Shown piece after piece: positions 6,792 to 34,403 of a stretch of DNA of 43,025 bases. Within the stretch, counting starts at the first letter, position 1, and every line of letters begins with the position of its first letter. The notes beneath the pieces were generated by a model, which worked only from the letters and a program-made list of their open reading frames with translations, searched no databases and was not told where the DNA came from. The translations under genes were made by a program, and so were the position numbers. The DNA lies in contig JAGOLA010000004.1 of NCBI GenBank assembly GCA_017994375.1, forward strand, positions 1-43,025, written 5' to 3'. The stretch comes from Candidatus Omnitrophota bacterium. Its GTDB lineage: Bacteria > Omnitrophota > Gorgyraeia > Duberdicusellales > 4484-171.

Positions 6792-8005
6792 CAATTTAAT
6801 AAATTTTTATAAACTTCAAAGTGTTTTTCAATTATCTTATTCCAATGACGGGTTCTACTTACATAGTCAAAACCTTTTATCGATAATTCTTCTCTTCTAG
6901 GTATATGGTTAATAAGTTGATTACATTTATCCGCTAAATCTTCTGGATGGGATGGTTCAAATAATAATCCATTTGTATTATCACCAATGATTTCTCGTAT
7001 TCCTCCGATATCACTACCAATAACTGCTTTTTGCATTGCCATAGCTTCTAGGGGCTTTAAAGGAGTAACTAGTTCGGTAAGCCTTATGCTTATACGAGGA
7101 TACACCAACAAATCCATAATAGAATAATATTTGACTATTTCGCTATGAGGCACTTTTCCAGGAAAAATAAAATGATTATCAAGACAAGAGTATTTTACAA
7201 AATCTTTGAGAAATTTATCCTGGGGTCCAGCTCCCACTAGCATAAAAACAACATTTTCATTATTCTTTATTATTTTAGGAGCGGCCTTAATAAGTAAATC
7301 TAAGCCCTCATATTTATAAAAAGAACCAATAAAACCAATGATAGTTTTACCGGTTAAATTATACTTTTTTATCAGTTCAACATTTTTATCCTGTGGTTTG
7401 AAAAAAGATAAATCTACTCCATTAGGAACTACCCAAATTTTTTTGCTATCTACTCCTCGTCCTATCATATCTTGCTTTAAACCTTCACAAATAGTAACTA
7501 TCCTATCAGCTTTTTTAAGAATATTAGTCTCAAGATATTTAGTTATTCTGTAACGTAAACTTTTTTCTTTGGTTTTACCTAAATCAACCGCAGCATCTTC
7601 CCAGAAAGCTCTTACTTCATATACAAAAGGCATAGAAAGCTTGCGGGCTACAGAATAAGCCGGTAAAGCATTTAAAATCGGTGAATGAGCATGAATAATA
7701 CCTTTAGGCTTATCTTTAAGAATGCGGTGAATGTCTTTTTTGAAATGTTCCATTGTAATCAACTGGTTAACAAAAGGAATTTTAGAAAATAAAACATTCC
7801 CATTGGGTAAGGAACGGTAAAATTCAATTCCCTCAATTTTTTCTTCTTTAAGTAACCCTTTTGAGTAAAGAGGAGAAATAATTCCAGTGGGATTTATGCC
7901 AAGAGATTTTTGAGTATTTAATATCGACCTGGAACGAAAAGTATATCCACTATATTCGGGAATAAAATGATCTAAGATATGATATATTTTTAAATTTGAA
8001 GCCAT
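6791..8005 (-). CDS. Exosortase-associated glycosyltransferase (GT4, Daro_2409-like)
   Basis: 404 residues. The N-terminal IYHILDHFIPEYSGYTFRSR matches the characteristic opening of the PEP-CTERM/exosortase A-associated glycosyltransferase of the Daro_2409 type (TIGR04063, recalled). The Rossmann-like second half has IGFIGSFYKYEGLDLLI, FPGKVPHSEIVKYY and the acidic donor loop LVTPLKPLEAMAM, which sits slightly differently from the classic EGFGLVxLEA form but keeps the E. It adds a sugar to the growing lipid-linked unit. It ends in a one-base overlap with the wecB start and starts 5 bp after the dehydrogenase gene. Confidence 0.86.
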   Translation of the reverse strand: MASNLKIYHILDHFIPEYSGYTFRSRSILNTQKSLGINPTGIISPLYSKGLLKEEKIEGIEFYRSLPNGNVLFSKIPFVNQLITMEHFKKDIHRILKDKPKGIIHAHSPILNALPAYSVARKLSMPFVYEVRAFWEDAAVDLGKTKEKSLRYRITKYLETNILKKADRIVTICEGLKQDMIGRGVDSKKIWVVPNGVDLSFFKPQDKNVELIKKYNLTGKTIIGFIGSFYKYEGLDLLIKAAPKIIKNNENVVFMLVGAGPQDKFLKDFVKYSCLDNHFIFPGKVPHSEIVKYYSIMDLLVYPRISIRLTELVTPLKPLEAMAMQKAVIGSDIGGIREIIGDNTNGLLFEPSHPEDLADKCNQLINHIPRREELSIKGFDYVSRTRHWNKIIEKHFEVYKNLLN

Positions 8006-8010
8006 ATTTT

Positions 8011-9333
8011 TTACAGTTTCCAGTAAACAATATCTTTATTAGAAAAATCTTTCCTTTCAAACATACCTTTAGCATCGACAACAACACCCTTAGCCCCATT
8101 GATAGAAAAATGGTTTTTCAAAGAATCTATAGTTAATTTATTTATAAAGTAATCATGTTTTACTGCAATAACTACAGCGCTGACTTTAAAATTTTTATCA
8201 TAATCTACTAAATCAAAGCCATATTCTTTTTTAACTTCCTCCTTATTAGCTAAAGGATCACACACTACTGTATCTAGACCATATTCTTTTAATTCATTAA
8301 TAATATCGACCACCCGAGAATTTCTAATATCACTAACATTTTCTTTAAAAGTTATACCCATTATTAAAACTTTTGAGCCTTTAACCGGCTTCCCAGCTTC
8401 AATTAAAGCCTTTATGGTATTTTCAGCAATATATTTACCCATATCGTCATTTATCTTTCTTCCGGCAAGAATCACTTGAGGATGATGACCTAATTCTTCG
8501 GCTTTATAAGTTAAATAGTAAGGGTCTACTCCTATACAGTGCCCGCCAACCAGACCTGGTTTCATATTGATAAAATTCCATTTTGTTCCAGCTGCTTTAA
8601 GAACTGATGAGGTATCTATCTTCATCTTATTAAAAATAATGGCTAATTCATTCATCAAAGCTATATTTAAATCTCTTTGAGTATTTTCAATAACCTTAGC
8701 TGCTTCGGCCACTTTTATAGACTCTGCTTTGTACACACCAGCTTTGACTACTAAACTATACATTTTTGCTATTCTTTCTAAAGACTCTTCATCACATCCA
8801 GATACCACTTTAATAATATTTTCTAAAGTGTGTTTCTTATCTCCGGGATTAATTCTTTCGGGTGAATAACCAACTTTAAAATCTTTTTTATAAACCAGTT
8901 TTGAATTCTTTTCTATTATAGGCACACAGATATCTTCGGTTACACCCGGATACACAGTAGATTCAAAAACTACTATGGCTCCTTTTTGTAGATTCTTTCC
9001 AACTATTTCGGAAGCACTCTTAAGACAGTAAAGATCCGGCTGTTTATTCTTTGTAATCGGTGTAGGTACAGCAACAATAATAAAATTAGCTTCTTTAAGC
9101 TTTTCGGCTTTATTGGTAAATTCTATGTGAGTTGCTTGCTTAAAATCTTCCTTGGGTGTTTCATCATTGCTATCAATACCGTTTTTCAAATTTGTTATTC
9201 GTCTATTGTTTAAATCAAATCCAATGGTGCTTATAACTTTACCAAACCCTAAGGCAAGCGGTAAACCAACATAACCTAAACCAACCACTGCGCATTTATC
9301 TTGTTTAGAAATAGTTTCTTTTGTAACTTTCAT
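8011..9333 (-). CDS. UDP-N-acetylhexosamine dehydrogenase (TviB/WbpO/WecC-type)
   Basis: 440 residues. The N-terminal NAD domain has CAVVGLGYVGLPLALGFG and VAVPTP. The SPERINPGDKKHTLENI segment and the catalytic-cysteine loop GGHCIGVDPYYLTYKAEELG follow, and a C-terminal UDP-binding domain includes GITFKENVSDIRNSRVVDI. It performs NAD-dependent two-step oxidation of a UDP-N-acetylhexosamine to the uronic acid. The YYLTYKA and ILAGRKIND motifs resemble TviB/WbpO more than WecC, so UDP-GlcNAc or UDP-GalNAc are plausible substrates. The nearby wecB argues instead for UDP-ManNAc. It begins the AT-rich assembly module after a 146-bp gap; no clear Shine-Dalgarno is seen. Confidence 0.9.
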   Translation of the reverse strand: MKVTKETISKQDKCAVVGLGYVGLPLALGFGKVISTIGFDLNNRRITNLKNGIDSNDETPKEDFKQATHIEFTNKAEKLKEANFIIVAVPTPITKNKQPDLYCLKSASEIVGKNLQKGAIVVFESTVYPGVTEDICVPIIEKNSKLVYKKDFKVGYSPERINPGDKKHTLENIIKVVSGCDEESLERIAKMYSLVVKAGVYKAESIKVAEAAKVIENTQRDLNIALMNELAIIFNKMKIDTSSVLKAAGTKWNFINMKPGLVGGHCIGVDPYYLTYKAEELGHHPQVILAGRKINDDMGKYIAENTIKALIEAGKPVKGSKVLIMGITFKENVSDIRNSRVVDIINELKEYGLDTVVCDPLANKEEVKKEYGFDLVDYDKNFKVSAVVIAVKHDYFINKLTIDSLKNHFSINGAKGVVVDAKGMFERKDFSNKDIVYWKL

Positions 9334-17846: not shown

Positions 17847-18752
17847 TTAAAGGCGGCTTAAATATTTAAAGGCTGAAAGGCAGGCTTTGGAACCCTCTCC
17901 GCAGGCAATAATAATCTGTTTTTCCGGGACATTGGTTACATCTCCGGCGGCAAAGATACCGGGGATATTAGTCTGATTATAGCAATCTACGATTATTTCA
18001 TCGTGTTCGTTTTTCTCTAAAATATCGGTAAACCTAGAATTAGGATTAAGTCCGATTTCAACTAATACTCCTTCTACCTTTAAAGTTTGAATTTTATTAT
18101 TTTGTTCTACTTGGATAGATTTTACAAAAACTTCACCTTCGATTTTTTTCACTTTGGCATTATTTAAGATAGTAACTAAAGGATTTTTAGTTATTTTTTC
18201 CACCATTACCGGGTCACCGGATAATTTAGGCGCAATATCAATAATGTAAACTTTAGGTGAAATTCTAACCATCTGTAAAGCTGCCTCCAGAGCCGAATTA
18301 CCTCCGCCGATTATTGCTACGTCCTTACCTTTATATAAGGGACCATCGCAAGTGGCGCAATAGGTAACGCCTTTGTTTTTATATTCGATTTCGCCGGGGA
18401 CTTTCAAGAGCCGCGGGCTTTTACCGGTTGAAACAATCAGGGCTTTAGATAAATATTCGGACTTATCAGTAACGGTCTTAAATAAATCTTTTTCTTTTTT
18501 AATACTATTTACATCTTCCGGCATATTGATACTGATTCCGAACGAATCCATATGCTCTTGGAATTTTAAGGTAAGTTCGGCACCGGTAATAAATTGGTAA
18601 CCGGTATAATTTTCGATGTCACCACTCCAAGCAGTCTGGCCACCGATATCTTTGGTAATAACTAAAAAATCTAATCTTTTTCTTACGGCATAAACCGCTG
18701 CGGTTATCCCGGCCGGGCCGGCTCCTAAAATTAATAAGTCATATACTTTCAT
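17847..18752 (-). CDS. Thioredoxin reductase-like flavoprotein
   Basis: 301 residues. FAD site GAGPAG (10-15), redox pair CATC (Cys132 and Cys135), pyridine-nucleotide site GGGNSALEAA (149-158) and C-terminal FAD motif GIFAAGDV. The HRRxxxR motif that holds the NADPH phosphate in classical TrxB is absent; the region reads YIIDIAPKLSGD, closer to AhpF-type NADH-dependent enzymes. It may therefore use NADH, or another donor. Partners are probably the CPYC glutaredoxin two genes upstream, and possibly the thiol peroxidase. It is the last gene of the redox run; it follows the zinc-ribbon gene by 3 bp. Confidence 0.88.
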   Translation of the reverse strand: MKVYDLLILGAGPAGITAAVYAVRKRLDFLVITKDIGGQTAWSGDIENYTGYQFITGAELTLKFQEHMDSFGISINMPEDVNSIKKEKDLFKTVTDKSEYLSKALIVSTGKSPRLLKVPGEIEYKNKGVTYCATCDGPLYKGKDVAIIGGGNSALEAALQMVRISPKVYIIDIAPKLSGDPVMVEKITKNPLVTILNNAKVKKIEGEVFVKSIQVEQNNKIQTLKVEGVLVEIGLNPNSRFTDILEKNEHDEIIVDCYNQTNIPGIFAAGDVTNVPEKQIIIACGEGSKACLSAFKYLSRL

Positions 18753-18961: not shown

Positions 18962-19192
18962 TTATTTAGCAAGAAGCTCATCGATTTGGGACTTATCAAA
19001 GCCGACGATAGCATTTCCATCGATGACTATTACCGGAACGCCCATTTGGCCGGAAACTTTTACCATCTCTTCGGCAAGAGCGCTATCGCTAGAAACATCC
19101 AGATTCTGATAGCTTATGCCTTTGGAAGAAAGGTACTCTTTGGCCATTTTACAATAAGGGCAAGTTGGTGTGGAGTAGACTTTAACTACCAT
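18962..19192 (-). CDS. Glutaredoxin-like protein (YruB/NrdH type)
   Basis: 76 residues, complete thioredoxin fold. TPTCPYCKMAKEYL gives the CPYC active site (Cys11, Cys14), and GVPVIVIDG carries the cis-proline. Without an obvious glutathione system in the window, electrons most likely come from the flavoprotein two genes downstream. It would reduce disulfides in the cytoplasm. It follows the ferritin-like gene by 10 bp. Confidence 0.9.
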   Translation of the reverse strand: MVVKVYSTPTCPYCKMAKEYLSSKGISYQNLDVSSDSALAEEMVKVSGQMGVPVIVIDGNAIVGFDKSQIDELLAK

Positions 19193-19202
19193 TTAAATCT
19201 CC

Positions 19203-19682
19203 TTACTTGAAAGAATCTTTCAAAACTGATAGCTTAACTAGATGCCATTTTTCTTCGTCAATAATCTTATCTAGAACGCTTTGCTTGTCAGTAGTTATAT
19301 ATTCTTTAAGGGCAGTATAAGTAAGTATCGATTCTTTCTCTATGAAAATACCGAATTTTAAAGCTTCGCTATCGCTACCAAAGCCTTCCTTTATCTTGCG
19401 TTCCACCAGCTCTTGGGTAAAGATATATTCCGAAGCAATAGCCCTTAAATAAGCTTGATATTCGCCGGGATTAAATTCGTAAATGACGTAATCTTTTATA
19501 TTATCGAGCATCTCTTGAAAAGTCTGGCGGTGGATTTTCTCTTGTTCTTTGAGGTAACGCCAAAGAGCTTTGAGCTCATCTTTTTTAGCTTTATCTTCTA
19601 AAGACTGGTATAAATTTTTGCCGTTTTCTTCTACTCTAATGGCAATTTTTAAAATTTCCTGAGGGCTAAAATCTTTTGACAT
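19203..19682 (-). CDS. Short ferritin-like diiron protein (rubrerythrin domain only)
   Basis: 159 residues, four-helix bundle. Candidate diiron ligands are complete: Glu in RVEENGKNLY, ExxH in KEQEKIHRQ, Glu in FIEKESILTY and ExxH in IIDEEKWHL. No C-terminal rubredoxin knuckle is present, so it depends on an external electron donor such as the rubredoxin just upstream of fprA. Likely a peroxidase or iron-binding protein. It follows the flavodiiron gene by 9 bp. It resembles the two short bundles encoded at 24027-25050 in layout. Confidence 0.83.
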   Translation of the reverse strand: MSKDFSPQEILKIAIRVEENGKNLYQSLEDKAKKDELKALWRYLKEQEKIHRQTFQEMLDNIKDYVIYEFNPGEYQAYLRAIASEYIFTQELVERKIKEGFGSDSEALKFGIFIEKESILTYTALKEYITTDKQSVLDKIIDEEKWHLVKLSVLKDSFK

Positions 19683-19691
19683 AATTATATT

Positions 19692-20870
19692 TTAGGGTTT
19701 TAATATTTTTTTAATTTTTCCTACTACTTCCGATAAGCCTCTTAAATCTTTCTCGGTCGGCAGATACTGGAAATACTTTCCGGAATCTAAGAGTTCTATT
19801 CCGGCTTCTTTGAGATAACTTTCGAACTCTTTAAAGCCAAAGACCGACCAGCCGTAAGAACCAAAAGTCAAGCCGTACCTATTTTTTGGCTTTAATCCTC
19901 TAAGATAGGTAAGCAAAGCGCCCATGCGGGGTAAAACTCTGCTGTTAAGAATAGGGCTGCCAAAAATCACTACTTTAGAGTTTAGAATATCGGTTACTAC
20001 ATCGGAAAGATCGGTAATGCTAAGATTGCATAATTTTACTGAAATATTTTCGCTATCTATCAAACTATACAACTTTAAGGCAATTTTCTCGGTAGAATGC
20101 CACATGGTATCGTAGATAATTAAGGCTTTATTGTCGGATAAGTAATTGGACCATTTATTGTAAAGGCTTATTATAGTATCGACATCAGTTTTATTGCGCC
20201 AAATCAAACCGTGGGAAGGATAAATCCGCTCTATCTCTATTTTTACTAATGCTGCCAATACTTCCTGGACCTGGTTGCCATAAGGCATGACGATATTAGC
20301 ATAATATTTGGTGGCTTCACGAAAAACGATATCTAGCCCAGCCTCTTCGGCAAACCTTTCGCTGCTGGCATAATGCTGGCCGAAAGCATCGTTAGAAAAT
20401 AAAATTTTGTCATTTTCTAAGTAAGTTACCATCGAATCCGGCCAGTGGACCATCGGCGTTAAGAAAAATTTTAATTTGCGCTGCCCGATGTTTAAAACCT
20501 CACCGTTATTTACTACCTTAAAATCCCATTTTTTTTGATAATACCTCTCAAGCGTTTCTTTGCCTTTGGGCGAACAAACTACTTTGGCCTGCGGACAAAA
20601 TTCTAAAAGTTCGCCAATGGCTCCGGAATGGTCCATTTCAGCGTGATTGGAAATAATATATTCTATTCTTAAAGGATCAACTACTTCTTTAATTCTGGAG
20701 AGCATATCAGCGAAGCCGTAATTTTTGACCGTATCTATTAAGGTAACTTTTTCATCTATAATAAGGTAAGAATTGTACGTGGTCCCGGAAGGAGTAGAAT
20801 AGCCGTGAAAGTTCCTTAAATTCCAATCGATATAGCCGGTCCAATATATTTTATCAGCTACTGAAACCAT
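19692..20870 (-). CDS. fprA: Flavodiiron protein (O2/NO reductase, FprA type)
   Basis: 392 residues. A metallo-beta-lactamase-like half carries all diiron ligands: His76-x-Glu78-x-Asp80-His81 (HAEMDH), His142, Asp161 and His220. The C-terminal flavodoxin half (about 249-392) starts at IIYDTMWHST and binds FMN. The family reduces O2 to water and/or NO to N2O with rubredoxin as donor. The rubredoxin gene sits directly upstream, separated by 2 bp, which supports that partner. Both probably come off the internal promoter at 21086-21113. Confidence 0.95.
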   Translation of the reverse strand: MVSVADKIYWTGYIDWNLRNFHGYSTPSGTTYNSYLIIDEKVTLIDTVKNYGFADMLSRIKEVVDPLRIEYIISNHAEMDHSGAIGELLEFCPQAKVVCSPKGKETLERYYQKKWDFKVVNNGEVLNIGQRKLKFFLTPMVHWPDSMVTYLENDKILFSNDAFGQHYASSERFAEEAGLDIVFREATKYYANIVMPYGNQVQEVLAALVKIEIERIYPSHGLIWRNKTDVDTIISLYNKWSNYLSDNKALIIYDTMWHSTEKIALKLYSLIDSENISVKLCNLSITDLSDVVTDILNSKVVIFGSPILNSRVLPRMGALLTYLRGLKPKNRYGLTFGSYGWSVFGFKEFESYLKEAGIELLDSGKYFQYLPTEKDLRGLSEVVGKIKKILKP

Positions 20871-21113: not shown

Positions 21114-21558
21114 GGCTATCAGAGTTTAAAAGACAGCTCTTCTTGGCGAACTCTGTTATCAAGATTTTTAACTTATCGCGAGTTTGACAAAAAGCGCTAA
21201 ATACCTCTTCGGAACTACCTTTAATATTAGCCGGGTCTTTTAAAGGCCAGTGAATTCTCTTGGCTTTTCCGGGGAAAACCGGACAGGTTTGATTGGCCTG
21301 GTCACAAACAGTAATTATATAGTCAAACTCTTTATCTAAAAACTCCTTTAAACTTTTGGAACGTTGTTCAGAGATATTTATACCTATTTGGGCCATGGCT
21401 TTGATAGCATCGGGATTAACCTGGCCAGGATGGCTACCGGCACTTTGGACTTGGAAATAATCAGGATACAGGTTTTTTAAAAGGCCCTCTGCCATCTGGG
21501 AACGGGCTGAATTATGGGTGCAGAGAAAAAGAACCTTTAGCTTTTTGTTATCATTCAT
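21100..21558 (-). CDS. arsC: Arsenate reductase, thioredoxin-coupled (LMW phosphatase-like ArsC)
   Basis: 152 residues. The phosphatase loop CTHNSARS (Cys13 to Arg19, CX5R) and the redox pair Cys85 and Cys92 (CDQANQTC) match the Cys-triad mechanism of B. subtilis-type ArsC; KRIHWPLKDPANI holds the catalytic Asp. It reduces arsenate to arsenite using thioredoxin or a similar thiol carrier. No ars efflux pump or ArsR is nearby. It overlaps the hcp stop by 4 bp, so its regulation is that of the redox run. A protein tyrosine phosphatase side activity is possible. Confidence 0.9.
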   Translation of the reverse strand: MNDNKKLKVLFLCTHNSARSQMAEGLLKNLYPDYFQVQSAGSHPGQVNPDAIKAMAQIGINISEQRSKSLKEFLDKEFDYIITVCDQANQTCPVFPGKAKRIHWPLKDPANIKGSSEEVFSAFCQTRDKLKILITEFAKKSCLLNSDSLYKR

Positions 21559-23225
21559 TTTTTAGCTAATATCTCTTCTAAATCTTTATCGGCGGTAGTT
21601 GTTGGTTTTAAATTAAACTTATCTATCAGCACTTTTAAGATATTTTCCGAAATAAAAGGCGGTAAAGTCGGGCCTAGCCGGATATTTTTTACGCCTAAGG
21701 AAAGTAAAGTCAGTAAGATACAAACCGCTTTTTGTTCATACCAAGAAAGTATTAAAGAAAGCGGCAAATCATTGATGCTGCAGCCTAAAGCTCCGGACAA
21801 AGCCGAAGCAATGGTTATTGCCGAATAAGCATCATTACATTGCCCGCAATCAAGAAGGCGCGGGATACCGCCAATTTCGCCAAAATCAAGTTTGTTAAAA
21901 CGAAACTTTCCGCAGGCTAAGGTAAGAATTAAACAATCATGAGGAACTTTTTGAGCAAATTCAGTATAGTAATTTCTTCCGGGCTTGGCGCCGTCGCAGC
22001 CACCAATAAGAAAAATATGTTTGATAGCGCCTAATTTAACAGCCGCGATTACTTTATCGGCTAAACTTAATACTGTAGTGTGGCCAAAGCCTACTAAAAT
22101 TTCTTTTTCGATGGCTCTTTCTTTAAAACCATCTAACTCTAAGGCTTTATTGATTAGAGAGCTAAAATCTTTTTTATCGTCTAATTTTTCGATATGTTCG
22201 ATTTCAGGATAAGCTACTAAACCGGTAGTGAAAATCCTGTCTTTATAAGATTCTCTTGGCTTTTGGAGGCAATTGGTGGTCATTAAAATAGCTGCTGGTA
22301 TTTTATCGAATTCCTTCTGCTGCTCCTGCCAAGCACCGCCAAAGTGGCCTTTTAGGTGAGGGTACTTCTTCAATCCCGGATAGCCATGGGCCGGCAGCAT
22401 TTCACCGTGAGTATAAATATTTATGCCACGGTCTTCGGTTTGTTTTAAAAGCTCTTCTAAATCCAGTAAATCATGGCCAGAAACGATAATAGCCGGGCCT
22501 TTCTCTACTCCTAAAGCTACTTTAGTAGGAACCGGATCGCCAAAATGGTTTCTATGGGCAGAATCCAATATCTCCATACAACGTAAGTTAACTTTACCAA
22601 ACTCCATAATTAACTCTAACCAACCTTCAGCTCCTAAAGAATTATCGGCTAAAGCCGTTAAAGCTTTATAGAAAAAAGAATTAACTTCTTCACTCTCAAA
22701 ACCCAAGATAAAAGCATGGTCAGCATAAGCAGCCATTCCTTTTAAACCGTAAAGAAGAATTTCCTGTAAACTTCTTATATCTTCGCTTAAACTGGTATCA
22801 GATAATAATCCTACTCTTTTACCTTGTTCCACTAAAGCTTCCAGAGTATTGGCCGGACGCCAATTAACAAGGTTGGGTAAAGAGCCAAAGAAATCTTTTT
22901 TATGCTTATTAGAATAGGCGTGCAAAAAGATAATTTTTATCTTTTGTTTGATGCCATAAGAATCATCGATCATTTTTCTTAATCTTTTGGAGTCAAAATT
23001 AACGTTAGTTACGGTGGTAAAAAGGGCTTCTATTATAAAGCTGTCAACTTCTCGGTTACGAACGCCTAATTGACGGGCGAGTTTACCATATATGGCAATT
23101 CCTTTAAGGCTGTGAATGAGTAAATCCTGCAAAGCCGAAGTATCGGAATCTTTGCCACAGACTCCTTGGGCTGTGCATCCCTTACCTCCGATAGCCTGCT
23201 CACATTGACGACAAAACATATTCAT
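21555..23225 (-). CDS. hcp: Hybrid cluster protein (hydroxylamine/NO reductase)
   Basis: 556 residues, normal length. N-terminal cluster Cys5, Cys8, Cys17 and Cys23 (FCRQCEQAIGGKGCTAQGVC) follow the spacing of anaerobe Hcp. The hybrid-cluster region has GHTTVLS, LIGGCDGAKPGR, LTLACGKFRF and LLDCGQCNDA. Hcp reduces NO to N2O and/or hydroxylamine and protects anaerobes from nitrosative stress. TAGGAGG lies 5-6 nt before the ATG. Its usual NADH reductase Hcr is not adjacent; the FNR-like flavoprotein at 28448 could serve. arsC follows with a 4-bp overlap. Confidence 0.95.
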   Translation of the reverse strand: MNMFCRQCEQAIGGKGCTAQGVCGKDSDTSALQDLLIHSLKGIAIYGKLARQLGVRNREVDSFIIEALFTTVTNVNFDSKRLRKMIDDSYGIKQKIKIIFLHAYSNKHKKDFFGSLPNLVNWRPANTLEALVEQGKRVGLLSDTSLSEDIRSLQEILLYGLKGMAAYADHAFILGFESEEVNSFFYKALTALADNSLGAEGWLELIMEFGKVNLRCMEILDSAHRNHFGDPVPTKVALGVEKGPAIIVSGHDLLDLEELLKQTEDRGINIYTHGEMLPAHGYPGLKKYPHLKGHFGGAWQEQQKEFDKIPAAILMTTNCLQKPRESYKDRIFTTGLVAYPEIEHIEKLDDKKDFSSLINKALELDGFKERAIEKEILVGFGHTTVLSLADKVIAAVKLGAIKHIFLIGGCDGAKPGRNYYTEFAQKVPHDCLILTLACGKFRFNKLDFGEIGGIPRLLDCGQCNDAYSAITIASALSGALGCSINDLPLSLILSWYEQKAVCILLTLLSLGVKNIRLGPTLPPFISENILKVLIDKFNLKPTTTADKDLEEILAKK

Positions 23226-23265: not shown

Positions 23266-23991
23266 TTAACTAAAAACCTTTCTTTTATAAGGTACTTCTT
23301 TTATTTTCCTTCTTATTACTTCCAAATAATACAATAACCTTTTACGTGGGTCATCTAAATCATCTAGAAATCTAGATTCATCTTTAAGATAATTAATTTC
23401 TACCGGGACTTCTCGAAAAGGAGTTTTAGTTCTTATAATTTCCAGTAAAATTTCCAGGCACCCTCCATAGTTTTTCTCGCGAAGATGCAGCTTTCGTAAA
23501 AAAGAATTGCGATAAGCCCGCAACATACAAAAGGTATCCGAAAATTCTATAGAATAAAGTTGTTTTATGAGCTTTGAAAGGTAACGATTTATAGTAAAAG
23601 AAAATATAGGAATATCGGTATAATTTATAATCCTAATATAGCGGGAACCTAGAATTACTTCCCGTTTATCAAGCTCTCCTAAAAAATCTAAAATATTCTC
23701 GGATTTGTACTGAAGGTCGGCATCGATAGTAACTATTTTTTTATACTTATTATCTAAAGCAAATTTAAATCCGGTAGCTAAAGCCGCGGTATAACCGTTC
23801 TTTTGCGGATGCCGAATCAAAAAGTTATTCTTGTTTTTAATACCAAAAAGAAAATCTCTACTTTTATCCGTAGAGCCGTCATCAACAAAAAAGACATCGC
23901 CTTTATAGCTTTTGCGTAAAAGGCGGTAAAATTCTTCGATTACGCTCTCTTGATTATAAACCGGGCAAATAACTAAAGAATCTCTATTCAT
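23266..23991 (-). CDS. Family 2 glycosyltransferase (polyprenyl-phosphate sugar synthase-like)
   Basis: 241 residues, GT-A fold only. LVICPVYNQESVIEEFY, VFFVDDGSTDKSRDF, a TIDADLQY metal site and ILGSRYIR match dolichyl/undecaprenyl-phosphate mannose or glucose synthases; no C-terminal membrane helices are present. Such enzymes make polyprenyl-phosphate-linked sugar at the membrane. It lies between a ferritin-like gene and hcp, 35-40 bp from each, on the same strand, which is an unexpected place for a glycosyltransferase. It may simply be a passenger. Confidence 0.82.
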   Translation of the reverse strand: MNRDSLVICPVYNQESVIEEFYRLLRKSYKGDVFFVDDGSTDKSRDFLFGIKNKNNFLIRHPQKNGYTAALATGFKFALDNKYKKIVTIDADLQYKSENILDFLGELDKREVILGSRYIRIINYTDIPIFSFTINRYLSKLIKQLYSIEFSDTFCMLRAYRNSFLRKLHLREKNYGGCLEILLEIIRTKTPFREVPVEINYLKDESRFLDDLDDPRKRLLYYLEVIRRKIKEVPYKRKVFS

Positions 23992-24026: not shown

Positions 24027-24548
24027 TTAGAAGAATTTACCGTATTTTATTCCAGCGTATAGTTGATCTATTTCTAACCTTGAATTTTTTAAATCTATTA
24101 AATGCTTCTCCTCTTCTTTTATTATCTTACCCAAAATTTCTTTTACTGGGGTAGGTCTTATCAATTCTCTTATTCTTTGATAGAAAATAATAGTATTTAG
24201 CTCAATTTCCATGGCAATTTTTATTATTGTAATAAGATTATTTTTATCTTTTTTAAAAAGGCTGTCTCTTACTTCAGAAATGTCAGGAAAAACAAGCTCT
24301 CTTAAGAAAGTATCCATTAATTCTTCGAAACGCTCATCAGCCGAAAAAGTAGATTCCTTTTTTGAATATACTTGGTATAGCTTAAAAAAAGTTTTGGCAT
24401 GTTTTACTTCGGCTTTGGCAAGATTAGAAAAAATATCTTTAATAGTTTTTTTATCGGCATAATCAGCTGATGCTTCGTAAAATTTTTGACCTCGCTCTTC
24501 TAAATTAATTGCCAATTTAAAGATTTCTTCAATCTTATAAATCTTCAT
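24027..24548 (-). CDS. Short ferritin-like diiron protein, copy B
   Basis: 173 residues, four-helix bundle. Ligands: Glu in INLEERGQKFY, ExxH in LAKAEVKHAKTF, Glu in AMEIELNTIIFY and ExxH in IIKEEEKHLIDL. No rubredoxin domain. It begins 1 bp after its neighbour's stop; the two look like a diverged tandem pair. Peroxide scavenging or iron handling is likely from the fold, but no activity is assigned to such short stand-alone bundles. Confidence 0.82.
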   Translation of the reverse strand: MKIYKIEEIFKLAINLEERGQKFYEASADYADKKTIKDIFSNLAKAEVKHAKTFFKLYQVYSKKESTFSADERFEELMDTFLRELVFPDISEVRDSLFKKDKNNLITIIKIAMEIELNTIIFYQRIRELIRPTPVKEILGKIIKEEEKHLIDLKNSRLEIDQLYAGIKYGKFF

Positions 24549-24549
24549 A

Positions 24550-25050
24550 TTATTTTACTCCTCCAAGCAAAGATTCCAGTAAAGCTTTGTGTTTCTTTTC
24601 TTCCTCAATTATATTATCTAATTCTAACCTTATCTCTTCAGTAGCGATATTATCACGGCAGGCTTGATAGAAATTTATCGATTTATCTTCGATAGCTATA
24701 CCGAGCTTAAAAGCTTTTCTATTATCGCTAAGTTTACTTTCTAAATCTTTTATGTTCTGGTAAGGCCAAAAAATTCCAAAATCCATAGAGCCTAATAAAT
24801 CGTCCTCTTCGAAATCATCTTTGCTAGTTTCTTTTATCTCGTATAAGCAATCTTTAAAAAACTTAAGGTGTTTATCTTCCTCTTTAAGAAGAAGCTTTAG
24901 AACTTCTTTGGTTTTAGAATCCTTGACCTTATTTAGCAGTTTTTGGTAAAAAGTTATCCCGTCTTTTTCGACTCGAGAGGCAATCTTGTAAGCATCAAGG
25001 GCATTAAAACTACTGATAATAAACTTTCCGGCCTTTTCTTCGATTTTCAT
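24550..25050 (-). CDS. Short ferritin-like diiron protein, copy A
   Basis: 166 residues. A 17-residue lead precedes the bundle. Ligands: Glu in IASRVEKDGITFY, ExxH in LLKEEDKHLKFF, Glu in GIAIEDKSINFY and ExxH in IIEEEKKHKALL. An insertion with DDFEEDDLLG is acidic. It overlaps the DJ-1 gene stop by 4 bp and is followed after 1 bp by copy B. Co-expression of two dissimilar bundles raises the possibility of a heteromeric assembly. Confidence 0.82.
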   Translation of the reverse strand: MKIEEKAGKFIISSFNALDAYKIASRVEKDGITFYQKLLNKVKDSKTKEVLKLLLKEEDKHLKFFKDCLYEIKETSKDDFEEDDLLGSMDFGIFWPYQNIKDLESKLSDNRKAFKLGIAIEDKSINFYQACRDNIATEEIRLELDNIIEEEKKHKALLESLLGGVK

Positions 25051-25562
25051 GCTTTACTCCTTTTTAGAAATTTTATTATTTCTTTACAAAATAAAGATAA
25101 ATCATAAGGGTTACGGGAGGTAATTAGATTCCCATCTACTACTACCTCTTTATCTAAAAATTTAGCTCCGGCATTAATTAAATCATCTTTTATAGCGTAA
25201 AAAGAGGTGGCCCGTTTACCTTTAAGAATACCGGAAGAAACCAGCACCCAACCGCCGTGGCAAATTGATGCTACTAACTTACCTTGCTTATATAAATCAC
25301 TGACAAATTTATTAATTTCCCGATAACGCCTTAAGATATCCGGCGCAAATCCTCCGGGAATAATTACTCCCGAGAAATCAGTGGCTTTGACTTTCTTAAT
25401 TAAGATATCGGCTTTGACCGGATAACCCTCTTTACTGCTATATTGTTCTTTAGTGGTGCCTAAGAAAACTACCGGAATTTTTTCTTCACGTAAACGTAAG
25501 TAAGGATACCAAACCTCAAGAACTTGGTAATAATCTTCTACTAATATTGCTACCTTCTTCAT
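25047..25562 (-). CDS. DJ-1/PfpI family protein (glyoxalase III/deglycase-like)
   Basis: 171 residues. The nucleophile elbow is SICHGGW with Cys101 and His102, and the family's strand-helix pattern surrounds it (GVIIPGGFAPD, TSFYAIKDDLINAGAKF, VVVDGNLITSR). Members act as methylglyoxal/glyoxal detoxifiers, chaperones or redox sensors through the oxidisable Cys. Position between the Tpx fusion (2 bp) and a ferritin-like gene (4-bp overlap) points to oxidative or carbonyl stress. Exact activity cannot be chosen. Confidence 0.88.
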   Translation of the reverse strand: MKKVAILVEDYYQVLEVWYPYLRLREEKIPVVFLGTTKEQYSSKEGYPVKADILIKKVKATDFSGVIIPGGFAPDILRRYREINKFVSDLYKQGKLVASICHGGWVLVSSGILKGKRATSFYAIKDDLINAGAKFLDKEVVVDGNLITSRNPYDLSLFCKEIIKFLKRSKA

Positions 25563-25564
25563 TA

Positions 25565-26416
25565 TTAACCTCCTAACTGGTCAATAATTTTTGCCATAAT
25601 AAAATCATTTTCGGTAAGACCGGATGCAGCATGGGTTGTAAGAATTACTTTTACTTTATTGTAGGTTAGAGTTAACATCGGATGGTGCCCTTGTTCTTGG
25701 GCAATATTAGCGATTAAATCTAAAAAATATTTCGCTGCCGAAAAATCGGAAAATTTAAATTCTTTTTTTAGTTTTTTATCATCTAAAACTTCCCAGCCTT
25801 GATATTGAGCCATCAAAGCTGCGATTTTTTCTTTGGAAAAAGAAGGCATACCACCTTCACAAGGTTTACATTTTGAAGACGAATCTTGGTCGATAATTTT
25901 AGATGGGCTTTTTAAAACTTCCTTTAAGTTTTTAAAGGTATCTTCGTAATCTATGGAATTAGTCAGCTCTTTAACTATCTGGATGTAGCGGACGATATTA
26001 TTCTTATCTAAAATCACTACTGCTCTGGCTAAGAGATTTAATTCTTTTATCAAAAGGCCGTAGTTAATACCGAAAGAAGAAGTTTTATAATCGGAAAGAA
26101 TTACCAAGTTATCGATACCATGAGCTTCGCAGAATCTCTTTTGAGCAAAAGGTAAATCCTTGCTTATCCCTAAAATAACGATATCGTCCGATAATTGAAT
26201 GGCTCTTTTATTAAATTCTTTTACTTGTAAATCGCATACCGGCGTATCTAAAGAAGGGAAAGAAGAAACTACCTTTATTTTTCCCGCAAAATTAGAAAGT
26301 CCGACTTCATCCATATTATTGGCAATAACCCGAAAATCAAAGCCAGTTTGCCCTAGCTTTAAGTCTCTTCCTACAATTGTTAAAGGTTTTCCTTTAAAAA
26401 GTATTTCTTTAGGCAT
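25565..26416 (-). CDS. Thiol peroxidase (Tpx) fused to pterin-4a-carbinolamine dehydratase
   Basis: 283 residues with two domains in one frame. Residues 1-170 are an atypical 2-Cys peroxiredoxin of the Tpx type: GRDLKLGQTGFDF, peroxidatic Cys61 in TPVCD and resolving Cys96 in QKRFCEAHGI. A short linker (about 171-181) leads to CKPCEGG (Cys183, Cys186), the regular start of pterin-4a-carbinolamine dehydratases, then GHHP (His244, His245), Tyr252, His262 and Asp271 at family spacing. Tpx removes H2O2 and organic peroxides with thioredoxin-like donors; the PCD half would dehydrate 4a-hydroxypterins or act on a molybdopterin-like pterin. The combination is unusual. It lies between the Cys/Lys miniprotein and DJ-1. 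Confidence 0.9.
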   Translation of the reverse strand: MPKEILFKGKPLTIVGRDLKLGQTGFDFRVIANNMDEVGLSNFAGKIKVVSSFPSLDTPVCDLQVKEFNKRAIQLSDDIVILGISKDLPFAQKRFCEAHGIDNLVILSDYKTSSFGINYGLLIKELNLLARAVVILDKNNIVRYIQIVKELTNSIDYEDTFKNLKEVLKSPSKIIDQDSSSKCKPCEGGMPSFSKEKIAALMAQYQGWEVLDDKKLKKEFKFSDFSAAKYFLDLIANIAQEQGHHPMLTLTYNKVKVILTTHAASGLTENDFIMAKIIDQLGG

Positions 26417-26437: not shown

Positions 26438-26584
26438 TTAAATATTCCAGCTGCCTTTATCTTCGGATAACATTGCCGAATCACAACAACTCTTTTTCTT
26501 TTGGGTTTTTTTATCTCCTTTACAAACTACACAGACTAAAGATTTTGCTTTCTTTTTAGATTTTGGTTTCTTTTTGCAAACCAT
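26438..26584 (-). CDS. Cys/Lys-rich miniprotein (possible metal-binding)
   Basis: 48 residues, ATG at 26582-26584 preceded by GAGGAG. It contains 16 Lys and 5 Cys: Cys3, a CVVC knuckle (Cys18, Cys21) and the pair CC at 33-34, with DSAMLSEDKGSWNI at the end. The Cys pattern could bind Zn, Fe or an Fe-S cluster; the Lys load suggests nucleic acid or polyanion contact. I recognise no family. It sits between ferritin (34 bp) and the Tpx fusion (21 bp), on the same strand, which makes a role in iron or redox handling plausible. Confidence 0.7.
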   Translation of the reverse strand: MVCKKKPKSKKKAKSLVCVVCKGDKKTQKKKSCCDSAMLSEDKGSWNI

Positions 26585-26618: not shown

Positions 26619-27104
26619 CTAGCCTCGAGCACCAAGCTCTTTATCTAACATCAGTATGCCGGCCGGCTGCTCATCGATATATTTTAATTTACTTAAAATT
26701 TCGGTAACACTCTTTTCTTCCTCTACCTGTTCATTAATAAACCACTGCAAAAATACTTTGGTAGCATTATCTTCAACTTTTTGGGCTATAGTATAAAGAT
26801 TGTTGATGCTGGCAGTAACTTTTTGCTCATGCTGCAAGGATTTCTTAAAAACATCTTCTGCCGATGAAAATTGGACCGGCGGTTTATCTATAGCTTCTAA
26901 GATTACCCGCAAACCGCGTTCGTTTAAATAACTGAAAAACTTCATAGCATGTGAGGTCTCTTCTTTAGCTTGGATTTGCATCCAGTGACTAAAGCCGCTT
27001 AAGTTTTCGGCTTCAAAGTAAGCAGCCATAGCAAGATACAAATAGGCGGAATATAATTCTTTGTTGAGTTGTTGGTTTAATTCTTTTTCTAACTTTTTAT
27101 CCAT
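26619..27104 (-). CDS. ftn: Ferritin (iron storage)
   Basis: 161 residues from the ATG at 27102-27104; AAGGAG lies 6 nt upstream, whereas the earlier in-frame ATG would put this site inside the gene. Ferritin ligands are seen: Glu in LNKELYSAYLYLA, the QAKEETSHAMKF ExxH, and Glu/Gln positions in QHEQKVTASINNLY and FINEQVEEEKSV. This is the bacterial non-haem ferritin type, which oxidises Fe(II) and stores it in a 24-mer. Coupling with superoxide reductase (upstream, adjoining) limits Fenton chemistry. Confidence 0.94.
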   Translation of the reverse strand: MDKKLEKELNQQLNKELYSAYLYLAMAAYFEAENLSGFSHWMQIQAKEETSHAMKFFSYLNERGLRVILEAIDKPPVQFSSAEDVFKKSLQHEQKVTASINNLYTIAQKVEDNATKVFLQWFINEQVEEEKSVTEILSKLKYIDEQPAGILMLDKELGARG

Positions 27105-27115
27105 AATTTTCTCCT

Positions 27116-27511
27116 TCATTCAATAGATAATTCCTGGTTTGATTCCCATAAGCCATGAATATTACAATAACTACTGGCAATAATTACCCCCGGCTTATCG
27201 CTCTTAAAATTTATTACTACCTTTGGTTCGGTATAAACCGTGCTGGTATTAGGACCCTGGGTAGAAGAGCCATGGGCAGTAAATTCAAATCTTCCTAATT
27301 GGTAAGGAAATTTATCATCTTGAGGTTTAAAATAAACTTCTATCCAGGCAATATGGTGTTCGGTAGTATTAGGGTGAGCGATTTCCTTACCGACACTAAC
27401 CGTAATCTGGATAATCTGGCCTTTTTTAACTTTCCCCGGAGCTTCGATTACCGGAACGTGTTTTTCTTTTTTCCAATCAGCACTTTGGTATAAATCTTTA
27501 ATACTTGCCAT
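27116..27511 (-). CDS. Superoxide reductase (neelaredoxin, 1Fe type)
   Basis: 131 residues from the ATG at 27509-27511, 9 nt after GGGGAGG; a GTG two codons upstream is only 3 nt from it. Catalytic-iron ligands are present: His18 in the EKHVP motif, His46 in AHPNTTEHH, His52, then Cys116 and His119 in YCNIHGLW. The Lys of EKH is the residue known to assist superoxide binding. There is no N-terminal desulforedoxin domain, so this is a class II enzyme. It reduces superoxide to H2O2 with electrons from rubredoxin; rubrerythrin and Tpx could remove the peroxide. Confidence 0.95.
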   Translation of the reverse strand: MASIKDLYQSADWKKEKHVPVIEAPGKVKKGQIIQITVSVGKEIAHPNTTEHHIAWIEVYFKPQDDKFPYQLGRFEFTAHGSSTQGPNTSTVYTEPKVVINFKSDKPGVIIASSYCNIHGLWESNQELSIE

Positions 27512-27554
27512 TGCCACTGCCCTCCCCTTTTAATCCATTATTAATTTTAATAAG

Positions 27555-27921: not shown

Positions 27922-28422
27922 TCAGAATTCTTTAAACACCTCTTTTTTAGCTGCGCAAACCGGACAATAATCCGGTAATTTTGTAGCCGTATAGCCGCAA
28001 ACCGGACAAATATATATGCTTTCTAGTTTGATGTCTTTATCTTTTGAAGCTGCTTCTTTGGCATCATTATACATCTTAGCGTGAATTTTTTCGGCCTCTA
28101 AAGCATAGTGAGTAGACTTTTCAGCTTCTTTTTCATTTTGAAACTTGGCATCGTTATTATAAACCGGATACATTTCCTCAACCTCAAAAGTCTCGCCTCC
28201 AATGGCAGTATCCAAATTATCCGGGGTTTTGCCAATGCCTTTTAAAACTTTAAGATGATTAGTGGCATGAACTTTTTCAGCATAAGCAATAGCCTGAAAT
28301 AGCCGGGCGATATTAGGCTTTTTCTCTTTTTCGGCTATCTCCGAAAAAATTAAATATTTCATATGGGCTTGAGACTCTCCAGAAAAAGCGTTTTGTAAAT
28401 TTTGTTGGGTCATTTTGTGCAT
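27922..28422 (-). CDS. rbr: Rubrerythrin
   Basis: 166 residues from an ATG preceded by GAGGAGG. The N-terminal diiron bundle (FSGESQAHMKYL, AIAYAEKVHATNHL, ALEAEKIHAKMY) is followed by a C-terminal rubredoxin-like domain, CPVCGYTATKLPDYCPVC. It reduces H2O2 with electrons from rubredoxin or NAD(P)H reductases and is a standard anaerobe peroxidase. It follows the FNR-like gene by 25 bp. It differs from the three short bundles downstream by keeping its own iron knuckle. Confidence 0.96.
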   Translation of the reverse strand: MHKMTQQNLQNAFSGESQAHMKYLIFSEIAEKEKKPNIARLFQAIAYAEKVHATNHLKVLKGIGKTPDNLDTAIGGETFEVEEMYPVYNNDAKFQNEKEAEKSTHYALEAEKIHAKMYNDAKEAASKDKDIKLESIYICPVCGYTATKLPDYCPVCAAKKEVFKEF

Positions 28423-28447: not shown

Positions 28448-29158
28448 CTAATATCCTACAAAAACTTCGGTTTTGATATTACTTTCTTCGCAGCCAACAT
28501 TAAAGCATAGTTTTTTCATAGAATTAATCATACTTTGCGGTCCAAAGACAAAAAAAACTCTTTGAGGCCAATCTTTAATCTTTTGCAGCAACAATTCTTG
28601 ATTTATTAAGCCGGCTATACACTTATTGTCGGTAGGTTTACAATCGGTTACGGTATAATATACCTTTATATTATTAGTTGTCTGCCAAAAATCTAACTCC
28701 TTTTTGAAGGCGATCTCTTCGGTACGGTTAGAATAAAGCAAAACAACATCATTATCCAATTTTTTATCATAAATATACTCTATAATGGATATTGCCGGCG
28801 TTATGCCTATACCGCCAATAAGAAAAGCTATCTTTTTATATTCGGCTTTAAAAATACAATTGCCTAGTGGTCCTTGAAAATAAACTTTATCTCCCGTTTC
28901 TAAGGCATTTAATCTTTCTGAAAAAGCACTACCAGTTAATTTTTTAGTCACTTCGATATAATCTTTGGTCGGCGAAGAAGAAAAAGAAAGGTATTTATTA
29001 AGCTCTTTATTATTAGAGTTCTTGGTATCAAAAAGAACCTTTAAGAATTGGCCGGGGAGAAAGTTTATTTTTTCAGAAACAGAAAAACGAAAACTCTCTA
29101 TATCAGAAGTGCGCTTTAGGCGTTGGATTAAATTAGCGGATATCGATATGGCGTTCAT
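28448..29158 (-). CDS. FAD/NAD(P)H oxidoreductase (ferredoxin-NADP reductase module)
   Basis: 236 residues, a stand-alone FNR module with no Fe-S or haem domain. The FAD-binding half has FLPGQFLKVLF and YLSFSSSPT; the nucleotide half has AFLIGGIGITPAISII, VLLYSNRTEEIAF and a C-terminal FVFGPQSM and EVFVGY. It should pass electrons from NADH or NADPH to a small carrier; rubredoxin, rubrerythrin, superoxide reductase or Hcp are candidate acceptors in the same island. It overlaps the regulator gene by 4 bp, so both are made from one message. Confidence 0.88.
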   Translation of the reverse strand: MNAISISANLIQRLKRTSDIESFRFSVSEKINFLPGQFLKVLFDTKNSNNKELNKYLSFSSSPTKDYIEVTKKLTGSAFSERLNALETGDKVYFQGPLGNCIFKAEYKKIAFLIGGIGITPAISIIEYIYDKKLDNDVVLLYSNRTEEIAFKKELDFWQTTNNIKVYYTVTDCKPTDNKCIAGLINQELLLQKIKDWPQRVFFVFGPQSMINSMKKLCFNVGCEESNIKTEVFVGY

Positions 29159-29565
29159 TCTTTATCTAAACAATTTTTGCATGTTCCGTAAAAATAGCCT
29201 TGAAGTTTCTCGATTACATGACCATCTATTCTACCGCGTTCTAATTCTGGGCAAGGCGGCTTATCAACATCAAATATTTTATGGCACTTTTTGCACAAAA
29301 AATGGTGATGAAAAGTAGTTTTAGTCTCAAAACGAGACCGGTCAAACTCTATTCTTATCTCGCCAATTAAACCTTTTTCTTTAAAAAGATCCAGTATCGT
29401 ATACACCGTTGCCAACGAAACTGCCGGAATGGTATTCTTAATCTTTTCATAAACCTCTTCGGCCGTCAAGTGCCTATTTTCTCCCCAAATAGCCTGATAA
29501 ACCCCTAACCTTTGGGGGGTAATCCTAATCTTTTTTTCTTTTAAAGAAGCAATAACATTCTTCAT
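29155..29565 (-). CDS. Fur-family regulator, PerR-like
   Basis: 136 residues. N-terminal winged helix (RITPQRLGVYQAIW, VSLATVYTILDLFKEKGLI) and C-terminal metal domain. The structural zinc site is complete: Cys91/Cys94 and Cys129/Cys132. Regulatory-site equivalents of B. subtilis PerR are His32, Glu80 (Asp in PerR), His86, His88 and Asp99 (Asp104 in PerR). The Asp at this last position is linked in the literature to peroxide sensitivity; the Glu80 is Fur-like. So peroxide sensing is likely but not certain. It heads the redox run and probably represses it, including itself, through the box at 29612-29631. Its start codon is almost at the predicted transcription start. Confidence 0.9.
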   Translation of the reverse strand: MKNVIASLKEKKIRITPQRLGVYQAIWGENRHLTAEEVYEKIKNTIPAVSLATVYTILDLFKEKGLIGEIRIEFDRSRFETKTTFHHHFLCKKCHKIFDVDKPPCPELERGRIDGHVIEKLQGYFYGTCKNCLDKE

Positions 29566-32018: not shown

Positions 32019-34403
32019 TTAACCGGCAGTGCTAATTCTTTTAACTACCCTAACGGCGTCTACACCGTCGCGGGCATAGCTAGCGCCCAAAGAATGGGCA
32101 TAAGATTTACTCACTACTGCTCCGCCGACTATAAAACGACAATATAGCTTTTGGGCTTTAGCCATACCGACTATTTCTTTCATATTAACCATAGTCGTAG
32201 TCATAAGAGCAGAAAGGCCAACAATAGGCGATTGATGGCGCTTAATCTCCCGGATAATCCTTTCGCTGGAGACGTCTTTACCTAAATCTATTACCGGGAA
32301 ACCGTGATTTTGCAGAATAAGGCTAACTATATTTTTACCGATATCATGGATATCCCCTTTAACCGTGGCTAAAATAACTACTGTTTTTTTAGAGCCTGGT
32401 ATTTGGTCTTTTTTAAAATAAGGCTTAAGGTATTGAAAAGCTAATTTCATAGTTTCGGCGCTGGCTATAAGCTGCGGCAAAAAATATTTTTTCTTGTCAA
32501 ATAAATCACCGACCTTATTAATTGCCGGAACCATAATCTTTTGAATGATATCTTCGGCGGATAAATCTTTTTTAAGGGCCTCTTTTATAAATAGCTTAAT
32601 CTCCTGCCGGTTGCCTTCTAAAACAGCATTAAAAATCTTCTCCTTAAGCGATAAAGAAGACCTTTTTTTCTCTAAAGCCTTAAGGCTATAGTTAAGGAAC
32701 CTGGCAGCATCTTTATCTTTTTGTAGCAATAAGTCTGCGGCTTGCCTGATATTTCTAAGTTCTTTATTTAAAGGATTAGCTATAACAGTAGTCAGCCCTT
32801 TACTTTGAGCCATAGCTAAATAGGCAGCATTAATCCAAGAACGCCTTGGCAAACCAAAAGAAATATTGGATAAGCCAATGACGCTATGGCTATTAAAAAT
32901 ATTTTTTAACCAGGATATGGTTTCTAAAGTATCTTGTGCCGAATTAGGGTTAGAAGAAATGGCCATAGCCATAGCATCAACGATGATATCATCTTTAGTA
33001 AAAGCAAAATTTTGAGCCTCCTGGAATATTGACCTGATTATCGTTATTCTTTCTCTTAAATCTTTAGGCATACCTTTTTCATCCAAAGGAAGAATTATAA
33101 ACATAGCTCCGTATTTAGCGGCAATCTTAAGCAGTTTTTTAGTCTTTTTCTTCTCGCCGGATATAGAATTAATGAGCGCTCTTCCGGGATAAACTCTTAA
33201 AGCCGCTTCTATAGCTTCAGGCTTAGAAGAATCAATAGCTAAAGGAATATCGGTGTTGGAAGATAAGAAATTAATAATTTTAGGAAAAGTTTTTACTTCG
33301 TCTATGCCGGATAAGCCGATATTAACATCCAGCAAATCAGCTCCTTGAACTTGTTGTTCTTTAGCTAAACTGTAAATAAGGTTAGTCTTCTCTTGGCGTA
33401 ACTGTTGAGCTAAATCTTTCCTTCCGGTAGGATTAAGGCATTCTCCTATCAACAACAAAGTCTTATCTTTTTCGATAAAAAGGTGCTTATGAGAAGAACT
33501 TAAAGCCGAAATTGATTGCCTTACAGGTAATATCGGTTTAATGGCCTTTAACTGATTAGTTAGCTCTTTTATATGGGCGGGAGTACTTCCGCAACAACCG
33601 CCGATAATATTAGTTCCTTTCAAAGCTAGCTCTCGACCAAATTTAGCAAACTCCTTCTCTTTCATGGTAAAGAGAGTTTCGCTTTTTACAAATTTAGGTA
33701 CCCCGGCGTTAGGTTTTGCGACTAAAGGCACTTTAGCGTAAGGTTTAATAGTTTCAATAATTTTTAACATGTCTTGCGGGCCGCTAGAACAATTACAACC
33801 AAAAGCATCGGCGCCTAAACTCTGTAAGGTAATTAAAGCTGTCAAAGGGTCTGTTCCGTTAAGAGTCCGGCCATTGGCCTCGAAGGTCATAGTAACAATA
33901 GTAAATTTATCCGAAATTTCTTTTACGGCAATAAGAGCAGCTCGGGCTTCTTGGATATCCATCATGGTTTCGATAACAAAAATATCTACTCCGCCGCTAA
34001 GCAGCCCCCGGGCCTGTTCTTTAAAAATTTTAACTGCTTCTTCAAACTTAAGAGGCCCGAAAGGTTCGATAAAAGTTCCGGTGGGTCCAATATCGCCGGC
34101 GATGATGCTACGGCTTCCTAAACAATTTCTGGCTAATTGAGCCAATTTTCTATTAATTCCATAAACATCAGCGATACGGTATTGTTTGAGCTTAAGGCGG
34201 TTGGCGCCAAAAGTACAAGTATAGATTACATCCGAACCGGCATTCTGATAAGATAAGTGCAATTCGGAAAGTATCCGAGGGTTTTTCAAAGCCCACTCTT
34301 CTAAAGAGCCGGCTTTGGTCATACCCCGCTTCTGTAACTCCGTTCCGGTAGCTCCGTCTAAAAATAGAAGGCGCTTTTTTAAAATATCGTCAATCTTTTT
34401 CAT
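32019..34403 (-). CDS. metH: Cobalamin-dependent methionine synthase without reactivation domain
   Basis: 794 residues in three modules. 1-290 is the homocysteine domain with zinc ligands in GCNCSSG and GGCCGSTP. About 310-575 is the methyltetrahydrofolate-binding TIM barrel (LLIGECLNPTGRKDL). About 590-794 holds the helical cap and the B12 domain with GDIHDIGKN. It transfers methyl groups from methyl-THF through cobalamin to homocysteine. The C-terminal AdoMet-dependent reactivation domain of full MetH (about 1,200 residues) is missing, so another reductase or a separate activator must restore oxidised cobalamin. Many anaerobes have this form. No cobalamin riboswitch fits in the 76 bp upstream. 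Confidence 0.92.
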   Translation of the reverse strand: MKKIDDILKKRLLFLDGATGTELQKRGMTKAGSLEEWALKNPRILSELHLSYQNAGSDVIYTCTFGANRLKLKQYRIADVYGINRKLAQLARNCLGSRSIIAGDIGPTGTFIEPFGPLKFEEAVKIFKEQARGLLSGGVDIFVIETMMDIQEARAALIAVKEISDKFTIVTMTFEANGRTLNGTDPLTALITLQSLGADAFGCNCSSGPQDMLKIIETIKPYAKVPLVAKPNAGVPKFVKSETLFTMKEKEFAKFGRELALKGTNIIGGCCGSTPAHIKELTNQLKAIKPILPVRQSISALSSSHKHLFIEKDKTLLLIGECLNPTGRKDLAQQLRQEKTNLIYSLAKEQQVQGADLLDVNIGLSGIDEVKTFPKIINFLSSNTDIPLAIDSSKPEAIEAALRVYPGRALINSISGEKKKTKKLLKIAAKYGAMFIILPLDEKGMPKDLRERITIIRSIFQEAQNFAFTKDDIIVDAMAMAISSNPNSAQDTLETISWLKNIFNSHSVIGLSNISFGLPRRSWINAAYLAMAQSKGLTTVIANPLNKELRNIRQAADLLLQKDKDAARFLNYSLKALEKKRSSLSLKEKIFNAVLEGNRQEIKLFIKEALKKDLSAEDIIQKIMVPAINKVGDLFDKKKYFLPQLIASAETMKLAFQYLKPYFKKDQIPGSKKTVVILATVKGDIHDIGKNIVSLILQNHGFPVIDLGKDVSSERIIREIKRHQSPIVGLSALMTTTMVNMKEIVGMAKAQKLYCRFIVGGAVVSKSYAHSLGASYARDGVDAVRVVKRISTAG

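Follow-up and report, generated by a model that had tools for sequence, protein, structure and literature searches.

The window analysed here, a stretch of 43,025 nucleotides from a Candidatus Omnitrophota bacterium (assembly GCA_017994375.1, contig JAGOLA010000004.1), encodes a single polypeptide which, by its sequence, is a complete thiol peroxidase (Tpx) followed by a complete pterin-4a-carbinolamine dehydratase (PCD). It is a genuine and conserved fusion, found as a full-length, one-frame gene in 49 of 384 Omnitrophota genomes (about one in eight), distributed over 11 families at 34–66 % identity. We put at roughly one half the probability that the protein is a bifunctional enzyme, which would remove peroxides and would also dehydrate 4a-hydroxy-tetrahydropterins derived from oxidised folate-type pterins. 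Neither domain is itself new; what is new is the architecture and the link between PCD and oxygen defence.

Domain architecture and active sites

The fusion gene occupies positions 25565..26416 of the window and is read as a single open frame of 283 aa. These coordinates were already given in an earlier note on this DNA, which left out the strand; the gene is on the minus strand, as are all of the window genes and features described below. The Tpx domain covers residues 4–165 (25922..26407), as judged from the NCBIfam model PRK00522, from Tpx relatives in the PDB and from invariant columns. Pfam places a Redoxin match at residues 27–156 (E=8e-22), and against PRK00522, named 'thiol peroxidase', this half scores 184 bits where the equivalog cut-off is 123. 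The peroxidatic Cys61 (codon 26234-26236) lies in a TxxC motif and the resolving Cys96 (codon 26129-26131) is on the next helix, as is usual in the Tpx family; Thr58 and Arg131 are further residues of note in the domain. Residues 166–192 (25841..25921) form a linker, the low-confidence part of the AlphaFold model (pLDDT 67–72), and it is here that Cys183 and Cys186 (25859-25870) are located, these being the N-terminal CxxC that belongs to the PCD family itself. The PCD domain follows at residues 193–281 (25574..25840), where the match to Pterin_4a (PF01329) has an E value of 7e-28 and 97 bits against a gathering cut-off of 26 (97–100 bits in the feature annotation). Its predicted catalytic residues are His244/His245 (25682-25687), His262 (25631-25633) and Asp271 (25604-25606).

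An alignment of 32 fusion proteins sharing 55–66 % identity reveals that Cys61, Cys96, Cys183, Cys186, His244, His245 and Asp271 are invariant and that His262 is at least 90 % conserved. The earlier note had described a one-frame Tpx–PCD protein with a short linker and had named all of these residues, and it was right on both points, with both halves above the Pfam and NCBIfam cut-offs. One position, on which the earlier note did not remark, counts against a bifunctional reading: residue 240, four before the first catalytic histidine, is Gln in the window in place of the usual Glu, which is found in most relatives, with Gln, Lys or Arg in several others. The PCD motif has an acidic residue four positions before the His pair, and Lys and His are also allowed there.

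With a mean pLDDT of 89.5 and a pTM of 0.86, the AlphaFold model is of high confidence outside the linker, and the top PDB matches of its Tpx half are Tpx crystal structures. This half resembles the known Tpx proteins, which are atypical 2-Cys peroxiredoxins (PRK00522; PDB 3p7x, 2jsy, 1qxh), in its full-length domain, its Cys61/Cys96 pair and the neighbouring motif, and Foldseek gives 45 % identity and a TM-score of 0.93 by target length to 3p7x. Known Tpx proteins, however, end at about 165 residues, where the fusion continues into its PCD domain. The second half is similarly close to PCD/PhhB/DCoH proteins (PF01329; PDB 2ebb, 2v6u) in having the full domain with the catalytic histidines and aspartate, and its N-terminal CxxC is as found in the solo PCDs of Omnitrophota, but it differs from them in standing behind a Tpx, in an oxygen-defence context and in a hydroxylase-less genome. 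A sequence comparison with the PDB found no chain spanning both halves. Fusion of a peroxidase to another domain in one polypeptide is familiar from the peroxiredoxin–glutaredoxin hybrids, although in these the partner is the electron donor of the peroxidase, whereas in Tpx–PCD it is a predicted pterin dehydratase.

Evolutionary history and variant architectures

A Tpx tree with 88 rows, solo Tpx proteins among them, unites every intact fused Tpx domain in one clade, separate from the ordinary Omnitrophota Tpx (SH-aLRT 99), and in the PCD tree the fused PCDs form a single clade with support of 98. As the fused forms are one clade in both domain trees, one origin is likely, and the simplest reading of these trees is probably a single fusion event followed by repeated loss or release of the PCD. 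Nested within the fused Tpx clade are solo Tpx proteins (nine rows forming one clade, one pair, and L150), while L149 and L054 are placed at its open base. Twelve genomes encode a solo Tpx that is a near relative of the fused form and lack a PCD altogether, G334 has released its PCD as a separate gene, and the free PCD of L189, which is nested inside the fused PCD clade, is intact. In G010 (L161:4924-5775) the Tpx half is without Thr58, Cys61 and Cys96 and the PCD half is intact.

These variants bear on the rather unlikely possibility that the PCD half serves in structure or oligomerisation and that its catalysis is not what matters. PCD is the same protein as DCoH, a dimerisation cofactor, and the PCD-like RAF2 proteins are assembly factors, so that members of the family are known in such roles. 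RAF2 is also among the subjects treated in PMC5972614. The PCD domain has moreover been lost several times with the Tpx kept, which would be compatible with an accessory part. Against this stands the alignment of 32 fusions, in which, at 55–66 % identity, His244, His245 and Asp271 never vary and His262 is almost always kept. The PCD has also stayed intact both in G010, after decay of the Tpx active site, and as the free protein of L189. The conservation of the catalytic residues also favours the bifunctional enzyme, in which the PCD half would be catalytic.

Further domains have been added to the fusion on two occasions. Rhodanese–Tpx–PCD proteins are present in three Gammaproteobacteria genomes (L051, 7645-8841; L052, 7593-8837; and L192), with a Fe/Mn superoxide dismutase gene adjoining the one in L052. 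Of these, L051 and L052 were included in the trees and nest within the fusion clade, which looks like horizontal transfer; a distinct architecture that recurs in this way makes misbinning unlikely. A rubrerythrin–Tpx–PCD protein occurs in one Omnitrophota genome (G020, L160:6944-8335). The rubrerythrin and rhodanese additions are two independent extra fusions, each of which adds a redox domain. A separate observation concerns L054:4312-5058, whose Tpx belongs to the fusion clade and is followed by an 85-residue tail, perhaps a PCD in decay; an hhalign comparison gave a probability of 2 % and P=0.024, with 0.13–0.37 for shuffled controls, and the match is not significant.

The oxygen-defence cassette

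The genes around the fusion are of the same kinds as those of the oxygen-defence clusters of anaerobes, with their superoxide reductase, rubrerythrin and flavodiiron protein, and to our knowledge PCD domains have not been counted among the members of such clusters. Upstream are a ferritin (26619..27119; Pfam Ferritin), a superoxide reductase with a neelaredoxin/desulfoferrodoxin iron domain (27116..27517; Pfam, NCBIfam), a rubrerythrin with C-terminal rubredoxin-like cysteines (27922..28422; assigned from its sequence and from homologues in other cassettes), an FAD/NAD-binding ferredoxin-reductase-like protein which recurs beside the fusion (28448..29158; Pfam) and a Fur/PerR-family regulator (29155..29565; Pfam), and the co-directional run on this side also contains a NifU gene. 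Directly downstream, after a gap of 2 bp, is a PfpI/DJ-1 family protein (25047..25562; Pfam, NCBIfam), which is the same neighbour in many fusion loci. It is followed by two rubrerythrin/ferritin-like proteins (24550-25050 and 24027-24548; Pfam), a hybrid-cluster protein (Hcp, 21555..23225; NCBIfam, 815 bits), a flavodiiron protein (19692-20870) and a rubrerythrin-like protein (19203-19682), the last two recognised by both Pfam and NCBIfam. Two candidate reductants of the Tpx complete this side, namely a glutaredoxin-like protein (18962-19192; Pfam Glutaredoxin) and a thioredoxin reductase-like protein (17847-18752; NCBIfam TRX_reduct, 296 bits, below cut-off), and an ArsC-like protein is encoded in the same run.

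Two other genes of the run may be mentioned. Between the fusion and the ferritin, directly upstream of the former, is a small Lys/Cys-rich ORF of 48 aa (26438..26584; MVCKKKPKSKKKAKSLVCVVCKGDKK...), which may encode a small protein for metal binding or redox chemistry, or may be no gene. A family-2 glycosyltransferase gene (23266-23991) also lies within the run, and a 55 % identical glycosyltransferase is found near the fusion in L050.

When 12 window genes are taken as cassette markers, at least two of them lie within 4 kb at 20 of 30 fusion loci and at 2 of 22 solo-PCD loci (Fisher p=4e-5, with shared ancestry ignored), a count that favours relatives of the window since the markers are drawn from it. 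Fewer than two recognised defence genes are nearby in the other 10 of the 30 fusion loci. More informative than this count, a similar defence cassette, with no adjacent Tpx, surrounds the solo PCDs of L169, L171 and L189, the order in L171 being Rrf2, ferredoxin, PCD, flavin reductase and flavodiiron protein; PCD is thus linked to oxygen defence in its own right. Solo PCDs are also seen in suf operons, at 7 of about 20 solo-PCD loci (L177, L179, L180, L181, L184, L185 and L186, at about 3300-8500 in each), in the order Nfu-like, PCD, Rrf2 regulator and then SufB, SufC and/or SufD, and the seven group together as a single clade in the PCD tree.

The reductant of the peroxidase

The Tpx half is expected to reduce H2O2 or organic hydroperoxides by means of Cys61 and Cys96, and the glutaredoxin and thioredoxin reductase encoded in the cassette would probably recharge it. 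It had been suggested in the earlier note that the CxxC of the PCD might instead reduce the peroxidase, and Cys183 and Cys186, which never vary in the alignment of 32 fusions and are situated in the linker beside the Tpx, could be imagined as a built-in reductant or electron relay. This now appears improbable. Among 22 distinct solo PCDs from Omnitrophota, 21 share this CxxC, which is thus a trait of the PCD family rather than a device of the fusion; furthermore, it is missing from the otherwise intact fusion L163 and is kept in G010, whose Tpx has no catalytic cysteines. With both present in the cassette, glutaredoxin and thioredoxin reductase are the likelier, and more ordinary, electron donors of the Tpx.

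Pterin partners and substrate pool

Many bacteria carry a PCD and yet have no pterin-dependent hydroxylase, and the organisms considered here belong with them. A search for the hydroxylase domain (Biopterin_H, PF00351) found none in 50 related genomes, so that its absence from the neighbourhood, as remarked earlier from the sequence, extends to the genome of the window itself and to all 50 tested, and a classical PhhA/PhhB partnership with a hydroxylase is rejected. GTP cyclohydrolase I, on the other hand, is encoded in all 50 of these genomes, and the window encodes a B12-dependent methionine synthase-like protein of 794 aa (32019-34403) with homocysteine, pterin and B12 domains, which makes folate-type pterins the likely pool. 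This methionine synthase-like protein stops after its B12 domain, and no match to a reactivation domain was obtained. A tie to the folate pathway of Wood-Ljungdahl metabolism was also considered by way of FTHFS, which does not track the fusion (11 of 22 fusion genomes against 9 of 28; p=0.25, no significant association).

A role of the PCD half in molybdenum-cofactor (Moco) metabolism would follow an earlier idea, as Naponelli et al. in 2008 reportedly proposed such a role for the PCDs of organisms without hydroxylases, and the Moco gene product MoaC is present in 6 of 22 fusion genomes. It is absent from the remaining 16, that of the window included, by a search that found it in 11 of 14 control genomes, and no Moco gene is recognised in the cassette. 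This role is consequently very improbable for the fusion and is mostly refuted already.

Distribution and authenticity of the fusion

In addition to the 49 genomes there are two further fusion relatives, in G001 and G022. The fused PCD is the sole PCD of every fusion genome in the set of 49, and the closest named relatives, among the matches listed, are metagenome-assembled genomes of Candidatus Omnitrophota. These matches come from a scan of genome contigs with two Tpx-based peptide patterns, which could miss fusions with a distant Tpx in other phyla. The earlier note had proposed a search for single proteins of this architecture, which the genomes above supply, and had named as possible refutations a base error in the linker and relatives in which the frames are always separate. 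Separate Tpx and PCD frames do occur, as a minority within the fusion clade. There is practically no chance that neighbouring genes were merged through an erroneous base or a faulty assembly, an origin which frame breaks in the fusion genes of G139 (where the linker is frameshifted at a run of GGGGG) and G269 (within the Tpx part) might bring to mind, as the same join recurs across 49 of 384 genomes and their relatives, single-contig assemblies (G001, G004 and G109) included, with the CxxC of the linker conserved. The note knew of no description of such a fusion, and our literature search likewise found, in the library covered, no paper that joins Tpx and PCD in one protein.

Proposed function and implications

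In the bifunctional enzyme proposed here, which would help to defend anaerobic Omnitrophota against oxygen and peroxide, the PCD half would dehydrate 4a-hydroxy-tetrahydropterins (carbinolamines) to quinonoid dihydropterins, which can be reduced again. In the absence of a hydroxylase these carbinolamines would arise when O2 or peroxide oxidises the tetrahydropterins of the cell itself, most likely its tetrahydrofolates. The Tpx would thus remove the oxidant and the PCD would repair the cofactor that it damages, with the fusion coupling the two. An earlier suggestion that the PCD clears pterins oxidised under peroxide stress fits the gene neighbourhood, the activity itself being a prediction. 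Tetrahydropterins are readily oxidised by O2. The PCD reaction normally converts 4a-hydroxytetrahydropterin to quinonoid dihydropterin, and without the enzyme non-enzymatic dehydration yields side products (PMC9737128). It is also described that H4-biopterin autoxidises with O2 and that electrophiles attack at C4a-N5, although O2 and radicals oxidise H4-biopterin mainly via C8a and the pterin peroxide equilibrium lies to the left (PMC9737128), so the amount of 4a-hydroxypterin formed under stress is uncertain.

Strict coupling of the two activities is opposed by the 12 solo-Tpx genomes without a PCD, by the released PCD of G334 and by the dead Tpx of G010; the two halves can part, and strict coupling is therefore not required. 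A more elaborate and rather speculative version, which we regard as unlikely, is a two-step repair in which the Tpx would reduce pterin 4a-hydroperoxides to 4a-hydroxypterins that are then passed to the PCD, with hydroxylase-less PCDs more widely, including those of suf operons, making up a branch of cofactor repair under oxidative stress.

If the repair function proposed for the bifunctional enzyme is true, it would give a concrete and testable answer to what PCDs do in bacteria that have no hydroxylase, and would show how anaerobes shield their one-carbon cofactors during brief exposure to oxygen.
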